Shown here piece by piece: positions 33,488 to 40,372 of a stretch of 64,000 nucleotides of DNA. Under the pieces are notes generated by a model. It was not told where the DNA came from and did no database searches. It was given only the letters and a program-made list of their open reading frames with translations. The stretch's first letter is position 1; every line of letters begins with the position of its first letter. Source of the stretch: Catenuloplanes niger (GTDB lineage Bacteria; Actinomycetota; Actinomycetes; Mycobacteriales; Micromonosporaceae); assembly GCF_031458255.1 (NCBI RefSeq), contig NZ_JAVDYC010000001.1, positions 6,209,001-6,273,000 on the forward strand. The letters run 5' to 3'. A program made the translations under genes and the position numbers.

Positions 33488-33618
33488 GATGTTGTCTTCA
33501 TCCCTTGTGGACTGCCGGGTGCACGAAAAGTAACGGCCCTCACCGGCGAACATGACACTGAGTGGTCAGATCCGAGGTTTCTGTAACCCCCGGTATGACT
33601 TTCGGTAGATTGAACCCG

Positions 33619-35793
33619 ATGGCTGGTCACTCTACGGTATGTCGCGTGAGTGCCGTGAGATCATTGAGTGCCCTCCCGATCCGCTCCGTCGCGGACCGGC
33701 TGCGCCTGGCGCACCGGGCGACGTTCCTGGGCCGGCAGCCGGAGATCACGGCGTTCCACGAACTGTTGCGGCCGGACGGTCCACACGCGCTGCTGGTGGT
33801 CGAGGGGCCGGCCGGGATCGGCAAGACCGCGCTGCTCGCCCGGTTCGCCGACGAGGCCCGCGCGGCCGGCCGGCCGGTACTGCGGGTCGACGGCCGGGAC
33901 GGCGACGAGGAGCGCGCGGGCGCGGCCGGGCCGGGCGCGCCCGTGGTGCTGGTCGACGACGCGGACCGGATCCCGGCGCTGGAGGCGTGGCTCCGTGACC
34001 GGCTGCTGCCGCGGCTGCCGATGGACGCGCGCGTGGTGCTGGCCGCGCGCCGGTCGCCGGTCACCCGGTGGAGCGCGGACCCGGGCTGGTTCCAGGCGAT
34101 CCGCCCGCTGTCGCTCGGCCCGCTGAGCCGGATGGACTCGAGCTCGCTGCTGCACCGGTTCGGCGTCGCGCCGCACCTGCGCCGCGAGATGATCGCGTTC
34201 GCCGGCGGGAACCCGTCCGCGCTCGCGCTCGCGGCCCGCACCGCGCAGTCGCCCACCCGGGACGGTGACGGCTGGGTGCCGACGCAGGAGCTGCTGGACC
34301 GGGTGGTCGCGGCGTGCGCCGGGCCGTTCCCGTCCGCCACCCACCGGCGCGCGTTGCAGGCCGCCGCGCACTCCATCGTGATCACCGAGGACCTGTTGCG
34401 CGCGGTGGTCGGTGACGAGGCCGCCGCGATGTTCGAGTGGCTGCGCACCCAGTCCTTCATGCACGTGTCACCGTTCGGCCTGGTCCCGAACGGCACGGTC
34501 CGCGCGTCGGTGGAGGCGCAACTGGCCCGGCGTGACCCGGACGGCCACCGCGCGCTGCACGACCGGATCCGCGACTACCTGTTCGAGCGTGCCCGGATCG
34601 CGGCCGGCGACGCGGTCATGCCGGCCATGGTGATGCTCGGCTACCTGCACCGCCGGTTCGGCGCGACCGCGTTCTACGACGCGATCCTCGGCATGCCGAC
34701 CGGCGCGCCGGACGACGCGACCGCGGAGCTGACCACCAGCGGCGTGTACGAGGACCGGGTCGACCCGGCCGAACTGCCCGCGCTGCTGGCGCTCAGCGAC
34801 GAGCCGGAGCTGGTGGAGTTCTGGTTCGGCCGGCAGCCGTCCGCGTTCCGCGCCTACCGGCGGGAGGCGCCGATCCCGCTGCTGGACACCGCGCGCGTCG
34901 GACCGTTCCACCCGCTGGAGCCGCGGGCCGGGCGCGGTGAGCTGATCGGCTTCTCCGCGCTGCTGCGGCTCGGCGTGGAGGACCTGGCCGAGTGCGAGCA
35001 CGACCCGGTGCTCGCGGCGGCGTGGGCGTTCACGCACACGGCCGCGCCGCTCGCCGCCGGGGAGGAGCTGGACGTGCTCCGGTTCGTGGCGCGGCCCGCG
35101 GCCGGCCCGCCCGCGGCTCAGCGCCCCGCCGGCGAGCGCCTGGCCGACCCGCTGGAGCGCCGCCGCGCCGACGCGGTGCAGGATCTCGCGGTCTACCGGG
35201 TGCTCGGCCGCGCGGTCCGGCCGGACCACCCGGCCTGGACGTTCCTGGCGACCGGCGACCCGGCGCTGTGGACCGGCGCGTTGCGCTACTTCGACATGCC
35301 GGGTACCGGGCTGGCCGTGCCCAGCGGCGGCCGGGACCGGCACCTGTTCGCGCACGACTGGCGGGCGGCGCCGCCGGAGGAGTGGCTGGCCGGGAACTCC
35401 CGGCGCCCGGTCGAGGAGCTGCCGCCGCGCGCGGACACCGGCCTGGCCGTGCTGACCCGGGCCGAGTTCGACACCGAGGTCCGGGCCGCGCTGCGCGCCT
35501 GGCGCCGCCCGGAGCGGCTGGCGGAGAGCCCGCTGCTGCGCACCGGCCTGGTCCGGGACGCGGACGACCCGGTCGAGTCGCTGCGCCGCACGCTGGCCGG
35601 GGCCGTGGAGGCGCTGGGCCGGCACGGCCGGACCGCGAAGCAGCACCGCGTGCTGACCACCACGTTCCTGAGCGGCGCGCCGACCCAGGAGGCGGCGGCG
35701 CGCCGGCTCGGGCTGCCGTTCAGCACGTACCGTCGCCACCTCACGATCGGGCTGACGACGATCTGCGACCGGCTCTGGCTGGGCGAGGAGTGA
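33619..35793 (+). CDS. Large ATPase regulator with C-terminal helix-turn-helix-like region
   Basis: The product is about 724 residues from ATG 33619 (GTG at 33562 and 33646 are alternatives). After a short leader comes a NACHT/AAA-type ATPase: FLGRQPEITAFHELL, Walker A GPAGIGKTALL and a Walker B-like VVLVDDADRI, as in LuxR/MalT-like STAND regulators. A long helical middle region without clear TPR signatures follows. The last 60 residues (TAKQHRVLTTTFLSG…TQEAAARRLGLPFSTYRRHL) look like a helix-turn-helix of the sigma-4/LuxR kind. It probably senses a ligand with ATP and binds DNA. The ligand is unknown. A promoter and small ORF lie just downstream. Confidence 0.75.
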   Translation: MAGHSTVCRVSAVRSLSALPIRSVADRLRLAHRATFLGRQPEITAFHELLRPDGPHALLVVEGPAGIGKTALLARFADEARAAGRPVLRVDGRDGDEERAGAAGPGAPVVLVDDADRIPALEAWLRDRLLPRLPMDARVVLAARRSPVTRWSADPGWFQAIRPLSLGPLSRMDSSSLLHRFGVAPHLRREMIAFAGGNPSALALAARTAQSPTRDGDGWVPTQELLDRVVAACAGPFPSATHRRALQAAAHSIVITEDLLRAVVGDEAAAMFEWLRTQSFMHVSPFGLVPNGTVRASVEAQLARRDPDGHRALHDRIRDYLFERARIAAGDAVMPAMVMLGYLHRRFGATAFYDAILGMPTGAPDDATAELTTSGVYEDRVDPAELPALLALSDEPELVEFWFGRQPSAFRAYRREAPIPLLDTARVGPFHPLEPRAGRGELIGFSALLRLGVEDLAECEHDPVLAAAWAFTHTAAPLAAGEELDVLRFVARPAAGPPAAQRPAGERLADPLERRRADAVQDLAVYRVLGRAVRPDHPAWTFLATGDPALWTGALRYFDMPGTGLAVPSGGRDRHLFAHDWRAAPPEEWLAGNSRRPVEELPPRADTGLAVLTRAEFDTEVRAALRAWRRPERLAESPLLRTGLVRDADDPVESLRRTLAGAVEALGRHGRTAKQHRVLTTTFLSGAPTQEAAARRLGLPFSTYRRHLTIGLTTICDRLWLGEE

Positions 35794-35877
35794 CGACCCG
35801 CGGGGGTACGGACCGGGTGGCGGAATCGTCGCGACGGCCGAATTACGCATCCGTTCGCGATCGCGCCGAATAAATGC

Positions 35878-35907
35878 TTGCCATTCTCGAGGGCCGGCGA
35901 TTAACGT
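35878..35907 (+). promoter_or_regulatory. Predicted sigma-70-type promoter
   Basis: TTGCCA (35878-35883) and TAACGT (35902-35907) are separated by 18 bases in an unusually AT-rich patch. The predicted start of transcription is near 35914, about 82 bases before the small ORF. Confidence 0.55.
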
Positions 35908-35995
35908 ATCCATCAGCTTCGGGTGGCCGGAGCCATGAGGGAAGCCGGCGACGGTAAACCGCGACGGTGAAATGATGAGGGCGAAGGAGGCGGTC

Positions 35996-36106
35996 ATGTC
36001 GGGTCAGATGCTTCGCGCGGCGGCGTCCTCGGCGCCGGACTGTCTCACCGGCCGTGGCTATCCGAGCCTGGCCCTCCTTGCGCCTCGGGGCGGTTGTCCG
36101 AGCTGA
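35996..36106 (+). CDS. 36-residue small ORF between promoter and terminator
   Basis: An ATG at 35996 follows a perfect AAGGAGG (35984-35990) with 5-base spacing and reads 36 codons to a TGA. The peptide begins MSGQMLRAAASS, contains two cysteines (CLTG and GGCPS) and no membrane segment. A predicted promoter lies upstream, and an intrinsic terminator with a T run starts 22 bases after the stop. This gives the ORF its own complete transcription unit, or makes it the leader of an attenuator for the tRNA genes that follow. No family is recognised. Confidence 0.55.
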   Translation: MSGQMLRAAASSAPDCLTGRGYPSLALLAPRGGCPS

Positions 36107-36128
36107 CCGGCGTCAGCGCGCGACCACG

Positions 36129-36165
36129 CCGCCCCTCCCGTCACGGGACCGGGCGGTTTTTCTTT
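36129..36165 (+). terminator. Intrinsic terminator before the tRNA array
   Basis: CCGCCC (36129-36134) pairs with GGGCGG (36151-36156), with an inner CCCG-TCA-CGGG stem, followed directly by TTTTTCTTT. It is the clearest Rho-independent terminator in the window and lies 42 bases before the first tRNA. Confidence 0.85.
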
Positions 36166-36206
36166 GCCCTCCCGAAATGCATTGATCGCAATTCTTCTTT
36201 CATCAT

Positions 36207-36280
36207 GCCTTCGTATCCCAATTGGTAGAGGAACGGCGTTGAGGACGCCGTCGTTGCGCGTTCGAATCGCGCCGGAGGCA
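36207..36280 (+). tRNA. tRNA with anticodon GAG (Leu) on a short-variable-arm body
   Basis: The 74-base cloverleaf has acceptor GCCTTCG/CGGAGGC, an imperfect D stem, anticodon stem CGGCG/CGCCG with loop TTGAGGA (anticodon GAG), a 5-base variable region and T arm GCGCG-TTCGAAT-CGCGC. The discriminator is A. The anticodon decodes leucine CUC, yet bacterial leucine tRNAs normally have a long variable arm. CCA is not encoded. Its true amino acid is therefore uncertain. Confidence 0.75.
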
Positions 36281-36294
36281 CGTGGCAACATCGG

Positions 36295-36369
36295 GCCCGG
36301 GTAGCCCAACTGGCAGGAGGCGCGCCGTTCAGGGCGGCGACAGTGTGCGTTCGAATCGCACCCCGGGCA
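36295..36369 (+). tRNA. tRNA with anticodon CAG (Leu) on a short-variable-arm body
   Basis: The 75-base cloverleaf has acceptor GCCCGGG/CCCGGGC, anticodon stem CGCCG/CGGCG with loop TTCAGGG (anticodon CAG), variable region ACAGT and T arm GTGCG-TTCGAAT-CGCAC. The discriminator is A and CCA is not encoded. It shares the D-arm irregularity (C13 opposite A22) and the TTCGAAT T-loop with the preceding tRNA, so the two are probably related by duplication. A leucine anticodon without the long variable arm is abnormal. Confidence 0.75.
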
Positions 36370-36385
36370 CGTACGGCAGGAACAT

Positions 36386-36458
36386 GGGGTCGTAGCTCAT
36401 CGGGAAGAGCGCTGTCCTCGCACGGCAGAGGTGGCGGGTTCGAGTCCCGCCGGCTCCA
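36386..36458 (+). tRNA. tRNA-Ala (anticodon CGC)
   Basis: The 73-base cloverleaf has acceptor GGGGTCG/CGGCTCC with wobble pairs, D stem GCTC/GAGC, anticodon stem CTGTC/GGCAG with loop CTCGCAC (anticodon CGC), variable region of 5 and T arm GCGGG-TTCGAGT-CCCGC. The discriminator is A. The usual G3-U70 pair for alanine identity is present as G3-T70 in the acceptor. Confidence 0.8.
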
Positions 36459-36476
36459 CGCACGAAACGGATCGAC

Positions 36477-36500
36477 CCGGTCCGGCATCCGCCGGACCGG
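36477..36500. other. Perfect hairpin between tRNA-Ala and tRNA-Tyr
   Basis: CCGGTCCGGC-ATCC-GCCGGACCGG forms a 10-bp stem with a tetraloop. It could be an RNA processing signal or terminator splitting the array into two units. Confidence 0.6.
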
Positions 36501-36505
36501 CCCGC

Positions 36506-36588
36506 GCGGGCGCGCCGACGCTGGAGAGTCGGGGGCGGCTGTAAACCGTCCGCATGGTCTGAGCAGGTTCGAATCCTGTCGCCCGCAC
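36506..36588 (+). tRNA. tRNA-Tyr (anticodon GTA)
   Basis: Acceptor GCGGGCG/CGCCCGC, D stem CCGA/TCGG, anticodon stem GGCGG/CCGTC with loop CTGTAAA (anticodon GTA), an extended variable region of about 12 bases as expected for bacterial tyrosine tRNA, and T loop TTCGAAT. The discriminator is A at 36587. The body differs strongly from usual actinobacterial tRNA-Tyr. Confidence 0.8.
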
Positions 36589-36600
36589 GCACGTTCCCAC

Positions 36601-36671
36601 GTCCGCATGTCCGAGAGGCCAGGAGCGCGACTGCAAATCGCGTCACACCGGTTCGAATCCGGTTGCGGACT
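36601..36671 (+). tRNA. tRNA-Cys (anticodon GCA)
   Basis: Acceptor GTCCGCA/TGCGGAC, D stem TCC/GGA, anticodon stem CGCGA/TCGCG with loop CTGCAAA (anticodon GCA) and T arm ACCGG-TTCGAAT-CCGGT. The discriminator is T, which is the main cysteine identity base. It lies 12 bases after the tyrosine gene. Confidence 0.85.
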
Positions 36672-36675
36672 CGCG

Positions 36676-36734
36676 GCGCGACCCGGGGAGCGGCGGTGGA
36701 CCGCACGGTCCGCCGCCGCTCCCCGGAGTCGCGC
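36676..36734. terminator. Long hairpin ending the tRNA array
   Basis: GCGCGAC and the following CCGGGGAGCGGCGG pair with CCGCCGCTCCCCGG and GTCGCGC over about 59 bases. It sits between tRNA-Cys and the convergent YcxB-like gene and should terminate both. Confidence 0.75.
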
Positions 36735-36735
36735 G

Positions 36736-37254
36736 TCAGCGGACGCGGACCGGCTCGTCGATGATCATGCCGCGTTCGACGAGGAAGTCCTCCAGTGTCT
36801 GCTCCTGCTCGTCGGTGAGCGGGGCGCGGGGCACGTCGAAGGAGCGGCCGCCCTCCTCGGCGCGGAAGAAGTAGGCGTGCGGGATGCGGACCGCGTAGCG
36901 GATGCCGGCCCAGTTCCAGGTGGTGCTGCCGATCGGCGTGCTGGACTCGAGGGCCTCGTCGGTGATCAGCCAGTCGCGCGGGGTGCACCAGGAGGCGGGG
37001 ACGGCGAGCTCGTCCTGCCAGCGGTCGTGCGCGCGGATGCACAGCCCGACGCCGATCAGGACCAGCGCGGGACCGGCCAGTGCCAGCTCGTCCTTGATGC
37101 CGGCGGACAGCAGCGCGGTGAGGCCCCAGGCGATCCCGGCCGCGAGCAGCAGCACGCCGCCGAGCAGGCTCGGCGCGGCGGCGGCACGGCCCGCCTGGGC
37201 TCGCTGTTCGCGGAAGTACTCCCGGGGACGCGCGTACGTGAACTCGATTCGCAC
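36736..37254 (-). CDS. YcxB-like membrane protein
   Basis: The 172-residue protein starts at a GTG (VRIEFTYARPREYFREQRAQ). It has two close membrane helices (about residues 33-50 and 56-75) and a soluble C-terminal domain. That domain follows the YcxB pattern: LITDEALESSTPIGSTTWNW, AYFFRAEEGGRSFDVPRAPL and a final helix TDEQEQTLEDFLVERG. YcxB-like proteins are small bacterial membrane proteins of unknown function. It is probably monocistronic; the upstream pfl operon ends about 130 bases before its start. Confidence 0.75.
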   Translation of the reverse strand: MRIEFTYARPREYFREQRAQAGRAAAAPSLLGGVLLLAAGIAWGLTALLSAGIKDELALAGPALVLIGVGLCIRAHDRWQDELAVPASWCTPRDWLITDEALESSTPIGSTTWNWAGIRYAVRIPHAYFFRAEEGGRSFDVPRAPLTDEQEQTLEDFLVERGMIIDEPVRVR

Positions 37255-37382: not shown

Positions 37383-38117
37383 TCAGGTGACGGTCAGGCC
37401 GCGGGCGCGAAAGATGTCGCGGGCCGCCTCGACCGCCTCGTGCGACGGCGGCACCGTGTCGCGCAACGGGAACTCCAGGCCGATCGCGTCGTACTTGTGC
37501 TGGCCGAGCCGGTGGAACGGCAGCACCTCGACGCGCTCGACCGTGGGCAGCTCCGCGGCGAAGTCGGCGATCCCGCCGATGTTCGACGGATCGTCGGTCA
37601 GGCCGGGGACCAGCACGAACCGTACCCAGACCGGCTTGTGCAACGCGGCCAGGCGGCGGCCGAAGCGCAGCGTCGGCGCGATCTCGCCGGTGCCGGTGAC
37701 CCGGCGGTAGGTGGCCGGGTCGGCGGACTTGACGTCCAGCAGCACCAGGTCGACCGCGTCCAGCAGCGTGTCCGAGGCCCGGTCGCCGTAGAAGCCGGAC
37801 GTGTCCAGCGCGGTGTGCAGGCCGCGCATCCGGCACGCGTGCAGGAACGCCTCCGTGAACCGGGCCTGCTGCAGCGGCTCGCCGCCGCTCAGCGTCACCC
37901 CGCCGCCGCTGACCCGGATGAACCGCTCGTAACCGTGCAGCGCGCTCATCAGGTCGTCCACGGTCATCAGCGTGCCGCTGCGCCGGTACCAGGTGTCGGG
38001 GGAGTGGCAGTAGAGGCAGCGGAGCGGGCAGCCGGCCAGGAACGCCACGAAACGGGTGCCGGGCCCGTCCACGCCGATCGACGTGTCGAACGAGTGGACG
38101 GACCCCGTGATGTTCAC
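37383..38117 (-). CDS. pflA: Pyruvate formate-lyase activating enzyme
   Basis: The 244-residue radical SAM enzyme has the cluster motif C30-xxx-C34-xx-C37 ([15 protein letters not shown]), at nearly the same place as in E. coli PFL-activase, and the SAM-binding [14 protein letters not shown]. It uses a 4Fe-4S cluster and S-adenosylmethionine to abstract hydrogen from a glycine of PflB, creating the glycyl radical. It overlaps the pflB stop by four bases, so the two are co-translated. The assignment is firm. Confidence 0.97.
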
Positions 38118-40372
38118 AGCGACCCGTGGAAGGTCCGGGAGACCACGTCGCGCTGCTGCTCCCGGGTCAGCCGCACGAAGTTCACCGCGTAACCGGAGAC
38201 CCGGACGGTGAGCTGCGGGTACTTCTCCGGGTGCTCCATCGCGTCCTCCAGCGTGGCGCGGTCCAGCACGTTGACGTTCATGTGGAAGCCACCGGTCCCG
38301 GTGTAGCCGTCCAGCACACCGACCAGGTCGGTGATCCGGTCCGCGCGGGTGTGCCCGAGGCCGTCCGGCGTGACCGTGCAGGTCAGCGAGATGCCGTCCC
38401 GGGCCGAGGCGTACGGCAGCTTCGCCACCGAGAGCGCGGCCGCGACCAGGCCGTGCTTGTCCCGGCCGTTCATCGGGTTCGCGCCCGGTGCGAACGGCTG
38501 GCCGGCGCGGCGGCCGTCCGGCGTGTTGCCGGTGTGCTTGCCGTAGACCACGTTCGAGGTGATGGTCAGCACACTCATCGTCGGCTCCGCGCCCCGGTAG
38601 GCCGGCTGCCGCCGGATCCGGGACATGAACTCCTCGACCAGCCAGGTGGCCATCGCGTCGACCCGGTCGTCGTTGTTGCCGAAGCTCGGGTAGTCGCCCT
38701 CGATCTCGTAGTCCACGGCCAGCCCGGTGTCGTCGCGGACGACGCGGACGGTCGCGTACCGGATGGCGGAGAGGCTGTCCACGGCCACGCTCAGGCCGGC
38801 GATGCCGGTGGCCAGGAAGCGATGCACGGGGTAGTCGTGCAGCGCCATCTCCAGCCGCTCGTACGCGTACCTGTCGTGCATGGCGTGAATGACGTTGAGC
38901 GCGTCCACGTACGTCTCGGCCAGCCAGTCCAGCGTGCGTTCGTACGCCGCGACCACCTCGCCGAACTCCAGGACGTCACCGGTCAGCGGCGCCGACACCG
39001 GCGCCACCTGGTCACCGGACATCTCGTCCCGGCCGCCGTTGATCGCGTAGAGCAGCGCCTTCGCCACGTTCGCCCGGGCGCCGAAGAACTGCATCTGCTT
39101 GCCGACCCGCATGCCGGACACGCAGCACGCGATCGCGGTGTCGTCGCCGTACTCGGTGCGCAGCGCGTCGTCGTTCTCGTACTGGATCGCGCTGGTGTCC
39201 AGCGACACCTGCGCGCAGAACCGCTTGAAGCCCGCGGGCAGCGCGGCGGACCACAGTACGGTCAGGTTCGGCTCCGGCGCCGGGCCCAGGTTGTACAGCG
39301 TCTGCAGGTAGCGGAAGCTGGTCCGGGTCACCAGCGGGCGGCCGTCCGCGCCGAGGCCGCCGAGGCTCTCGGTCACCCAGGTCGGGTCGCCGGAGAAGAG
39401 CGCGTCGTACTCCGGCGTGCGCAGGAACCGGATGATCCGCAGCTTGATCACGAAGTCGTCGACCAGTTCCTGCGCCTCGATCTCGGTCAGGTCACCGGCC
39501 GCGATGTCCCGCTGCAGGTACACGTCGACGAACGTGGCGGTCCGGCCGAGCGACATCGCGGCGCCGTTCTGCTCCTTCGTCGCGGCCAGGTAGGCGAAGT
39601 ACAGCCACTGGATCGCCTCGCGCCCGGTCGTGGCCGGCCCGGAGATGTCGTACCCGTAGGACGCGGCCATCTCCTTCAGTTCGCGCAGCGCGCGGACCTG
39701 CTCGGCCAGTTCCTCCCGGTCCCGGATCACGTGCTCGGTCGACCGCGCGTGGTCCAGCGCGCCCTTCAGCGTGATCCGCTCGGTGATCAGCCGGTCCACG
39801 CCGTAGAGCGCGACCCGCCGGTAGTCACCGATGATCCGGCCGCGGCCGTAGGCGTCCGGCAGGCCGGTGATGATGTGCGAGCGACGGGCCTTCAGCACCG
39901 CCTGGGGGTACGCGTCGAACACCGCGTCGTTGTGGGTCTTGCGGTACTTGCCGAACGTCTCCCGCACGGCCGGGTCCAGCTCGTACCCGTAGGCCTTCAG
40001 CCCGTTCTCCACCATCCGCAGGCCGCCGTTCGGCATGATCGCCCGGCGCAGCGGTGCGTCCGTCTGCAGGCCGACGATCAGCTCGTTGTCCCGGTCGATG
40101 TACCCCGGCGCGTGGCTGGTGATCGTCGACGGTGTGCGCGCGTCCACGTCGTAGACGCCGCGCTCGCGCTCCACCGGGAACATCGCCTGCAGCTTCGCCC
40201 AGACGTCCAGCGTCCGGCAGGTCGGGCCGGTGAGGAAGTGGTGGTCCCCCTCGTACGGCGTGTAGTTGTCCCGGATGAAGCCGGCCACGTCGACGTCCCG
40301 CCGCCAGTCCGTGCCGGCGAAGCCCCGCCACGCGTCCGCGGTCGACGTCCGCGCCTCTGCCTGTGCCGTCAT
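38114..40372 (-). CDS. pflB: Formate C-acetyltransferase (pyruvate formate-lyase)
   Basis: The 752-residue enzyme splits pyruvate and CoA into acetyl-CoA and formate anaerobically. The catalytic pair is C416-C417 in IACCVSGM and the radical glycine is G727 in [13 protein letters not shown]; both positions agree with E. coli PflB (C418/C419 and G734 of 759). Other family blocks include [14 protein letters not shown] and [18 protein letters not shown]. The enzyme is oxygen-sensitive in its active form, so expression under oxygen limitation is expected. It is the second gene after a small unknown ORF on the same strand. Confidence 0.97.

Follow-up and report, generated by a model that had tools for sequence, protein, structure and literature searches.

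Why bacteria, plasmids and phages carry redundant arrays of tRNA genes, and how such arrays are controlled, is the question raised by a small tRNA cluster of Catenuloplanes niger. We analysed a stretch of 64,000 nucleotides of its genome (contig NZ_JAVDYC010000001.1, positions 6,209,001 to 6,273,000), referred to here as the window. ARAGORN calls exactly five tRNA genes in the whole 64-kb window, all on the plus strand at 36207-36672, and thus confirms the five-member array which an earlier note had read from the sequence alone; the members called are Leu-GAG, Leu-CAG, Ala-CGC, Tyr-GTA and Cys-GCA. Our main reading, to which we assign a probability of roughly 0.87, is that these genes form a spare set of redundant and divergent tRNAs behind a ribosome-mediated transcription attenuator, which would be switched on when the matching tRNAs run short.

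A redundant array and its surroundings

The array consists of the following genes, each given with its evidence:

36207..36281, plus strand: tRNA-Leu(GAG) with a short variable arm (ARAGORN, Rfam, alignment of short-arm Leu tRNAs)
36295..36370, plus strand: tRNA-Leu(CAG) with a short variable arm (ARAGORN, Rfam, alignment of short-arm Leu tRNAs)
36386..36459, plus strand: tRNA-Ala(CGC) with G3:U70 (ARAGORN, Rfam; G3:U70 from the sequence)
36506..36588, plus strand: tRNA-Tyr(GTA), divergent (ARAGORN; Rfam only below the cut-off, as tRNA-Sec)
36601..36672, plus strand: tRNA-Cys(GCA) with U73 (ARAGORN, Rfam; U73 from the sequence)

Three of the five (Leu-GAG, Ala and Cys) score above the Rfam gathering score and four match RF00005 at the E-value threshold; the Tyr gene matches tRNA-Sec below the cut-off of that model. 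G3:U70 in tRNA-Ala and U73 in tRNA-Cys are identity elements. The host genome is one contig of 9.74 Mb with 63 RF00005 matches. Among the loci read, another host gene exists for each of the five array anticodons, which makes the array redundant, and the host's standard leucine set comprises long-arm tRNAs for GAG, CAG, UAA, UAG and CAA. The array Tyr and Cys genes are indeed divergent, as had been suspected, with alignment scores of 0.63 and 0.65 against the host's own copies. At anticodon loop position 32 or 38, both Leu tRNAs and the Ala tRNA differ from the canonical host copies and the Tyr and Cys tRNAs are the same, which suggests that nuclease resistance through the anticodon loop would be at most partial.

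The array is present in all five genomes of the genus, our own included. In the stretches examined, ARAGORN calls no Tyr or Cys in one relative (G001), no Ala in a second (G002) and no Cys in a third (G004), in which BLAST still shows a Cys-like piece. The downstream side of the array is partly rearranged among the relatives. The earlier suggestion that the array is cargo of a former mobile element stands in so far as short-arm leucine tRNAs also occur in arrays of plasmids, phages and viral contigs. However, the upstream neighbour gene (window 33562-35793) is found no more than about 2 kb from the array in 4/4 genus relatives, and therefore the array now seems to be inherited vertically within the genus. 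This neighbour has weak matches to AAA/STAND-type ATPases, below the Pfam cut-offs. Downstream, at window 37383-40372, lie a pyruvate formate-lyase-like gene and a radical SAM gene, a pair which seems unusual for a filamentous actinomycete.

Short-arm leucine tRNAs in the Actinobacteria

Both leucine-anticodon tRNAs of the window lack the long variable arm, with variable regions of 4-5 nt, and the D-stem is disturbed in both, which we read as a C13.A22 mismatch; on these points the earlier note was right. Their common TTCGAAT T-loop is no sign of a private duplication, contrary to what had been proposed, since the array Tyr and Cys tRNAs carry the same loop; the two Leu genes align with a score of 0.72 of full identity. 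In an alignment of 18 short-arm Leu tRNAs, of which the genus supplies 10, 96.4% of cells pair and 17 of the 20 pairs change on both sides. None of 500 shuffles reaches this covariation, and these tRNAs thus fold better than expected by chance. A73, A14 and A15 are invariant in all 18. Within this set, U10-A25 replaces G10-C25 in the Leu-GAG genes, and the D-arm of one tRNA, the Mycolicibacterium CAG, is of another kind.

The earlier note had further supposed that body and anticodon are in conflict and that the tRNAs, charged with another amino acid, would mistranslate CUC/CUG codons. A scan of one-genome-per-species contigs for the D-arm pattern gave at least 119 stretches, and 80 among the matches listed were examined. 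These 80 comprise 62 single Leu tRNAs of 74-77 nt (43 UAA, 12 CAA, 6 UAG, 1 CAG), 12 clusters, one tRNA-Phe and 5 stretches without a tRNA under the pattern. Among the matches listed, the single genes come mostly from Actinobacteria such as Nocardia, Gordonia, Corynebacterium, Mycobacterium, Microbacterium and Bifidobacterium. For three such genomes the RF00005 matches were listed, and in two of them every match of at least 80 nt was read. Nocardia carnea has long-arm Leu tRNAs for CAA, UAG, CAG and GAG and a short one for UAA; Mycobacterium sp. SM1 has long-arm ones for GAG, UAG and CAG and short ones for UAA and CAA. In neither genome did the RF00005 matches of at least 80 nt, all of them read, or the short tRNAs, read in part, include a long-arm UAA reader. 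In N. carnea, the only UUA reader found is a short-arm tRNA, and in Mycobacterium sp. SM1 the same holds for both UUA and UUG, so that, given the standard code, such bodies would have to carry leucine in these two genomes. Judging from these sequences, a short-arm tRNA-Leu with such a D-arm is a normal component of many actinobacterial chromosomes and is presumably charged with leucine.

The window Leu tRNAs share the features of this type, namely a Leu anticodon, A73/A14/A15, a D-arm of the GCCCAA..GG.AG.AGGC type and a short variable region. Recoding by another amino acid would be in line with the absence of the long arm that the host's own Leu tRNAs possess, but we regard it as scarcely credible and have rejected it: in the two other actinobacteria the UUA reader, or both the UUA and the UUG reader, were found only in short-arm form, the host keeps its long-arm set for five anticodons, and the nearest relative of both window tRNAs (scores of 0.74 and 0.73; 57 own and 28 other tRNAs compared) is a Mycobacterium Leu-CAA of this very kind. 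The constancy of A73, A14 and A15 likewise argues against it, as does the near absence of long arms from the family loci fetched, where 158 of 160 Leu tRNA calls (157/159 distinct genes) belong to the short-arm type.

A class-level search for the pattern gave matches in 4 of 246 genomes, at five places: one is the window array, one another array (G048), and each of the remaining three a lone Leu-UAG gene, with no array in the stretch examined. Short-arm Leu tRNAs are also seen in large arrays from non-Actinobacteria or metagenome bins (L212, from Cyanobacteria bacterium UBA11153, L214, L250 and L267), and by eye none of these four has a matching leader. A tRNA-Leu(TAG) with a short variable loop in a mycobacterial tRNA cluster is already in print (PMC6582537); it shows the same oddity with another anticodon, and the accessible part of that paper proposes no function or regulation for it. 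For M. tuberculosis, only tRNA-Leu-2, 3 and 5 are named with a long variable loop in the accessible part of PMC11541572.

Leader peptides matched to their tRNA arrays

Upstream of the array lies a leader-terminator unit (35996-36165) which the earlier note does not mention. Its elements and the sequences around it are:

35878..35907, plus strand: putative promoter, TTGCCA-N18-TAACGT (by eye; weak)
35984..35990, plus strand: Shine-Dalgarno sequence AAGGAGG (from the sequence), 5 nt 5' of the ATG
35996..36106, plus strand: leader ORF of 36 codons, MSGQMLRAAASSAPDCLTGRGYPSLALLAPRGGCPS (ORF and translation; conserved in the genus)
36087..36094, plus strand: predicted antiterminator 5' strand GGGGCGGU at the ORF end, GGGGCGGT (minimum-energy fold of 36080-36170; duplex test at 99 other loci)
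36102..36117, plus strand: predicted small hairpin holding the stop codon, within the antiterminator (fold)
36128..36165, plus strand: intrinsic terminator, a GC-rich hairpin with a T-rich end at 36157-36165 (fold; conserved in the genus)

In the alignment, the promoter-like sequence is similar in three of the four other genus genomes, the exception being G003. The motif AGCTTCG follows the presumed promoter at window 35915-35921, is also found in several relatives and perhaps lies near the 5' end of the transcript. A consensus promoter and terminator scan of 35700-36800 reported nothing; it probably missed the terminator because its model requires a single uninterrupted stem immediately 5' of the T-run.

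The terminator and the leader ORF, with its MSGQ start, are conserved in 5/5 genus genomes, the relatives of MSGQMLRAAASSAPDCLTGRGYPSLALLAPRGGCPS being MSGQALLAAPLGLDCLYPALLAASGGRPH, MSGQVLRAARSAVAFPARSCPAALGCLYLSLLAPRGGCPS, MSGQKLLAAAAAARLDLDCLYQALLADRGGYLS and MSGQVLRAARSAAASSAQACLAALGYLPLALLGYRGGCPS. Each of the five peptides contains the residues to which the array tRNAs correspond (Leu, Ala, Cys and Tyr), and C-L-Y is contiguous in three of them. Within the genus, the match lags behind gene content: the relative without Tyr and Cys genes yet keeps C-L-Y in its leader, and the one without an Ala gene yet keeps many Ala codons. The ORF end (36087-36094) resembles the 3' arm of the terminator and pairs with its 5' arm (36128-36135), which would also be the 3' strand of the antiterminator; 21 nt separate the leader ORF from the terminator hairpin. 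RNA folding predicts the antiterminator when the ORF end is included (36080-36170) and the terminator when it is left out (36120-36170). The predicted antiterminator excludes the terminator, and a ribosome at the stop codon may mask the ORF end. The whole-leader fold has no extra stability over shuffled sequences (z -1.35).

At 99 other loci, the predicted duplex between ORF end and terminator 5' arm comes to -19.7 kcal/mol, as opposed to -14.3 kcal/mol for shuffled ORF ends (mean z -2.13; 57/99 below -2; 61/99 in the best 5% of shuffles), and the gap from stop codon to hairpin is 14-24 nt (5th to 95th percentile). Pairs with swapped partners reach -18.4, so that a locus's own partners are only slightly better, because both the ORF end and the terminator arm are conserved.

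We then compared leaders and arrays beyond the genus. A family-wide search gave matches in 266/300 genomes, single-tRNA-size matches included, and 112 loci picked by hand among the matches listed were put to a leader rule which considers only Shine-Dalgarno sequence, ORF length, hairpin and T-run and is blind to peptide composition. As these loci were chosen by similarity to the window array, related arrays are over-represented. They yielded 115 clusters of at least two tRNAs in 107 loci, and the rule found a leader in 99/115; of the 16 clusters without one, 8 share their locus with another cluster that does have a leader. The rule also finds a leader-like ORF at 8/31 canonical tRNA upstreams and in 11/182 random stretches. 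A minority of the chosen leaders or starts may thus be wrong; such false leaders would dilute a match and not produce it. The window's own array (L075), which had been lost to a short upstream sequence, was restored from the window for the composition test, which brought the totals to 100 leaders and 85 distinct arrays. A single family, apparently the Micromonosporaceae, accounts for all of these arrays except one. Scores omit the start codon and, except in the shortest leaders, the last six codons.

In the 85 distinct arrays, a fraction of 0.711 of the scored leader residues has a tRNA in the leader's own array, compared to 0.547 after shuffling (sd 0.010; 0/5000). For the 30 arrays of at most six tRNAs the values are 0.514 and 0.310 (0/5000), and when each peptide family contributes a single leader (n=39) they are 0.655 and 0.494 (0/5000). 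All 20 amino acids are commoner in the leader when their tRNA is in the array, from 1.4-fold (Ala) to 6.0-fold (Trp), and on average 97.4% of the array amino acids occur in their own leader (79.9% shuffled). The signal is confined to the ORF frame (frame 0 z 15.6; +1 -0.9; +2 -0.9; antisense -3.9). Over the six codons nearest the stop it is weak or absent (z -1.5 to 2.9), it is still weak at codon 7 (z 2.7), and it jumps at codons 8 and 9 (z 7.1 and 8.0), as expected if the antiterminator fixes the ORF end and stalling must occur upstream of it. Chance ORFs as the source of the leaders were tested with the other frames, antisense, random stretches, canonical upstreams, shuffles and the use of one leader per peptide family, and were rejected. 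Good matches among small arrays include MRCLYYAPDRWCG for Tyr and Cys, MLCTSLYLAPDRWRG for Leu, Tyr and Cys, MYCWQQPCHYPGPIGRRS for Trp, Gln, Tyr and Cys, MSISLLSGRRRWRN for Leu, Ser and Ile and MTLQALRLLDRWRC for Leu, Thr and Leu; by eye, matches are poor for Trp-Leu (L169) and for two Leu-Leu arrays (L091 and L102). The window leader taken by itself matches modestly, with 0.45 of residues in its set; 81 leaders from other genera, when scored on this set, give 0.32, and 9 of them attain 0.45. The claim rests on the comparison across arrays. Taken together, an attenuator's parts are found here: a leader ORF with a ribosome binding site 5' of the genes, both in the window and in those 99 clusters, regulatory codons which match the operon product across the array set, and an intrinsic terminator between leader ORF and tRNA genes.

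The host carries a second array at 8.40 Mb, with nine divergent tRNAs (Trp, Gly, Gln, Met, Ser, Arg, Pro, Val and Val), which obeys the same leader-array rule with other amino acids than the window array:

L050 7218-8846 (C1 8402217-8403845): second array
L050 7218-7349: its own matching leader
L050 7677-8114: HNH endonuclease gene inside the array, between tRNA-Gly and tRNA-Gln

Its leader MMRMSPDTMWQALQSPVAMVERPGSSFRGHGVFRGSQRWCGLG, followed by a terminator, stands 5' of the tRNAs, and 75% of its scored residues fall in its own set. Scored on this set, 84 other leaders give 47%, and a single one of them attains 75%. The fold of this leader shows the terminator, and its duplex (-19.4) is no better than shuffled ones (-20.2).

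Outside the family, leaders were picked out among many loci and serve as illustrations, not as a sample. Two Nonomuraea arrays (Ala, Gly, Leu, Glu, Arg and Cys) have leaders MYRAAATLEQERCHHLRPAALGRALAGAASG and MLRAAAALMQERCYCRRPAALGCALLRTASG, with 0.75 and 0.83 of residues in the set, as compared to 0.49 when 85 family leaders are scored on it; in the second, the Cys gene about 1.8 kb further on was counted in. The replicon of this second array is labelled a plasmid, yet measures 11.85 Mb. By eye, leaders are credible at the Nonomuraea loci L078, L207 and L333 (where the fixed rule ranked another ORF first and the matching ORF second), at an Arthrobacter locus (L334) and in a viral contig (L392), and plausible at L344. 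On the Arthrobacter plasmid NZ_CP104273.1, a 52-residue leader holding all 20 amino acids (L334 158-316) precedes 37 tRNAs for all 20 amino acids. The AT-rich viral contig IMGVR_UViG_3300028909_000017 (L392) has nine tRNAs (Leu, Tyr, Leu, Trp, four Ser and Cys), and its leader MTFSKSNSASLCSLDYSLLYWSLMRPGNC, before a terminator, is rich in Ser, Leu, Tyr, Trp and Cys (0.73 in the set versus 0.32), with Ser codons that cover the four Ser tRNAs. No credible leader was found in three Mycolicibacterium/Mycobacterium plasmid arrays (L077, L079 and L335). Among 80 of the 120 viral loci, 56 clusters had enough upstream sequence and 18 of these a leader-like ORF, most of which do not match by eye.

tRNA loss as the probable signal, and known systems

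According to our main reading, RNA polymerase would first transcribe the leader, whose body holds codons for the array tRNAs and whose last codons would form the antiterminator 5' strand opposite the terminator 5' arm. As long as Leu, Ala, Tyr and Cys tRNAs are ample, a ribosome reaching the stop codon would cover the ORF end, the terminator would form and the array would stay off. If the cell lacks one of the four, or has it only in uncharged form, the ribosome would stall upstream, allowing the antiterminator to form and the array to be transcribed; the tRNAs thus supplied would free the ribosome and complete a feedback circuit. Such a switch would be of most use if it were set off by the disappearance of a tRNA, for example through anticodon nucleases or toxins, since extra tRNA is no cure for amino-acid starvation.

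The codons of the leaders bear on this choice. Codons readable by the anticodons of the own array make up 0.778, as opposed to 0.704 when anticodons are permuted within each amino acid (sd 0.009; 0/2000). The strongest shifts, in counts uncorrected for relatedness or test number, are those for Gly-TCC (18/55 with the tRNA, 6/113 without), Leu-GAG (CUC/CUU 117/242 and 11/63 of Leu codons), Ser-GCT (AGC/AGU 73/148 and 4/33 of Ser codons) and Leu-CAA (6/23 and 9/282). A shift is absent for many anticodons and not significant for any Ala or Val anticodon, and some, such as Ala-CGC, Val-GAC and Thr-TGT, show the opposite trend. We take these codon counts as a sign that the leaders track individual tRNA species, and we therefore prefer the loss of a tRNA to a lack of its amino acid as the signal.

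The same attenuator could instead respond to amino-acid starvation, as in the trp/his type, with the arrays raising decoding capacity for scarce aminoacyl-tRNAs. In trp/his attenuators any uncharged tRNA stalls the ribosome equally, and leader composition alone cannot separate starvation from tRNA loss; we nevertheless consider starvation unlikely to be the signal, given the isoacceptor-level match, the many amino acids served by arrays at once and the fact that more tRNA does not cure a lack of amino acid. That the arrays are decaying, now functionless cargo of a former plasmid or phage would accord with similar arrays on plasmids and in viral contigs, with the array genes missing within the genus and with the HNH gene inside the second array. 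It is nonetheless improbable, as the stems are preserved by compensatory change and leader ORF and terminator are kept throughout the genus and matched to array content across the family. Shared descent alone, without function, might also link leaders to arrays, because both are related across genomes and the shuffles model no tree. Yet the signal holds with one leader per peptide family and is missing from other frames, and the match recurs in Nonomuraea and in the AT-rich viral contig, which makes this explanation very improbable.

Beyond the window, we lean somewhat towards the broader view that such arrays are widespread self-monitoring tRNA reserves of actinobacteria, plasmids and some phages, which would sense tRNAs isoacceptor by isoacceptor, release divergent, probably nuclease-resistant replacements and then shut themselves off. 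The leader peptides would name the tRNAs whose loss each array answers, and tRNA-targeting attacks would become predictable genome by genome. If true, these leaders would also be small natural devices that detect when an individual tRNA species is lost.

Related arrays have been described in other contexts. The Anabaena trn operon is a redundant array of 26 tRNA genes, normally silent and induced by translational stress; its regulator is the ribbon-helix-helix repressor TrcR and not an attenuator, and the terms attenuation, terminator and leader are absent from the main text, as far as accessible (PMC10272220). The tRNA array units of mycobacteria, plasmids and phages are redundant, divergent clusters with HNH genes and a putative antidefence role; they resemble the family studied here but contain at least 20 tRNAs each, and the accessible parts of both papers describe no regulation (PMC5966550, PMC12803027). 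With five genes the window array falls below the size of at least 20 tRNAs set for such units in the accessible text of PMC5966550, and some larger family arrays reach it. Phage tRNAs act as replacements that resist anticodon nucleases; the likely purpose, replacing tRNAs destroyed by nucleases, is the same, but unlike in our proposal, the accessible part of that paper describes no sensing of tRNA loss (PMC10264068). Among the papers listed by our searches of the open-access literature, we found no report of an attenuator ahead of such an array. Attenuators and tRNA arrays have each been described, and within this scope their combination is apparently unreported. Ribosome-mediated transcription attenuators of amino-acid operons are of the trp, his and ilv type. 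Like these, the leaders described here combine a peptide with regulatory codons, an antiterminator over the ORF end and an intrinsic terminator. What differs from these operons is that tRNA genes are the putative targets of control and that each leader spells out the content of its own array, from one or few up to about twenty amino acids, matched partly at the level of the isoacceptor.
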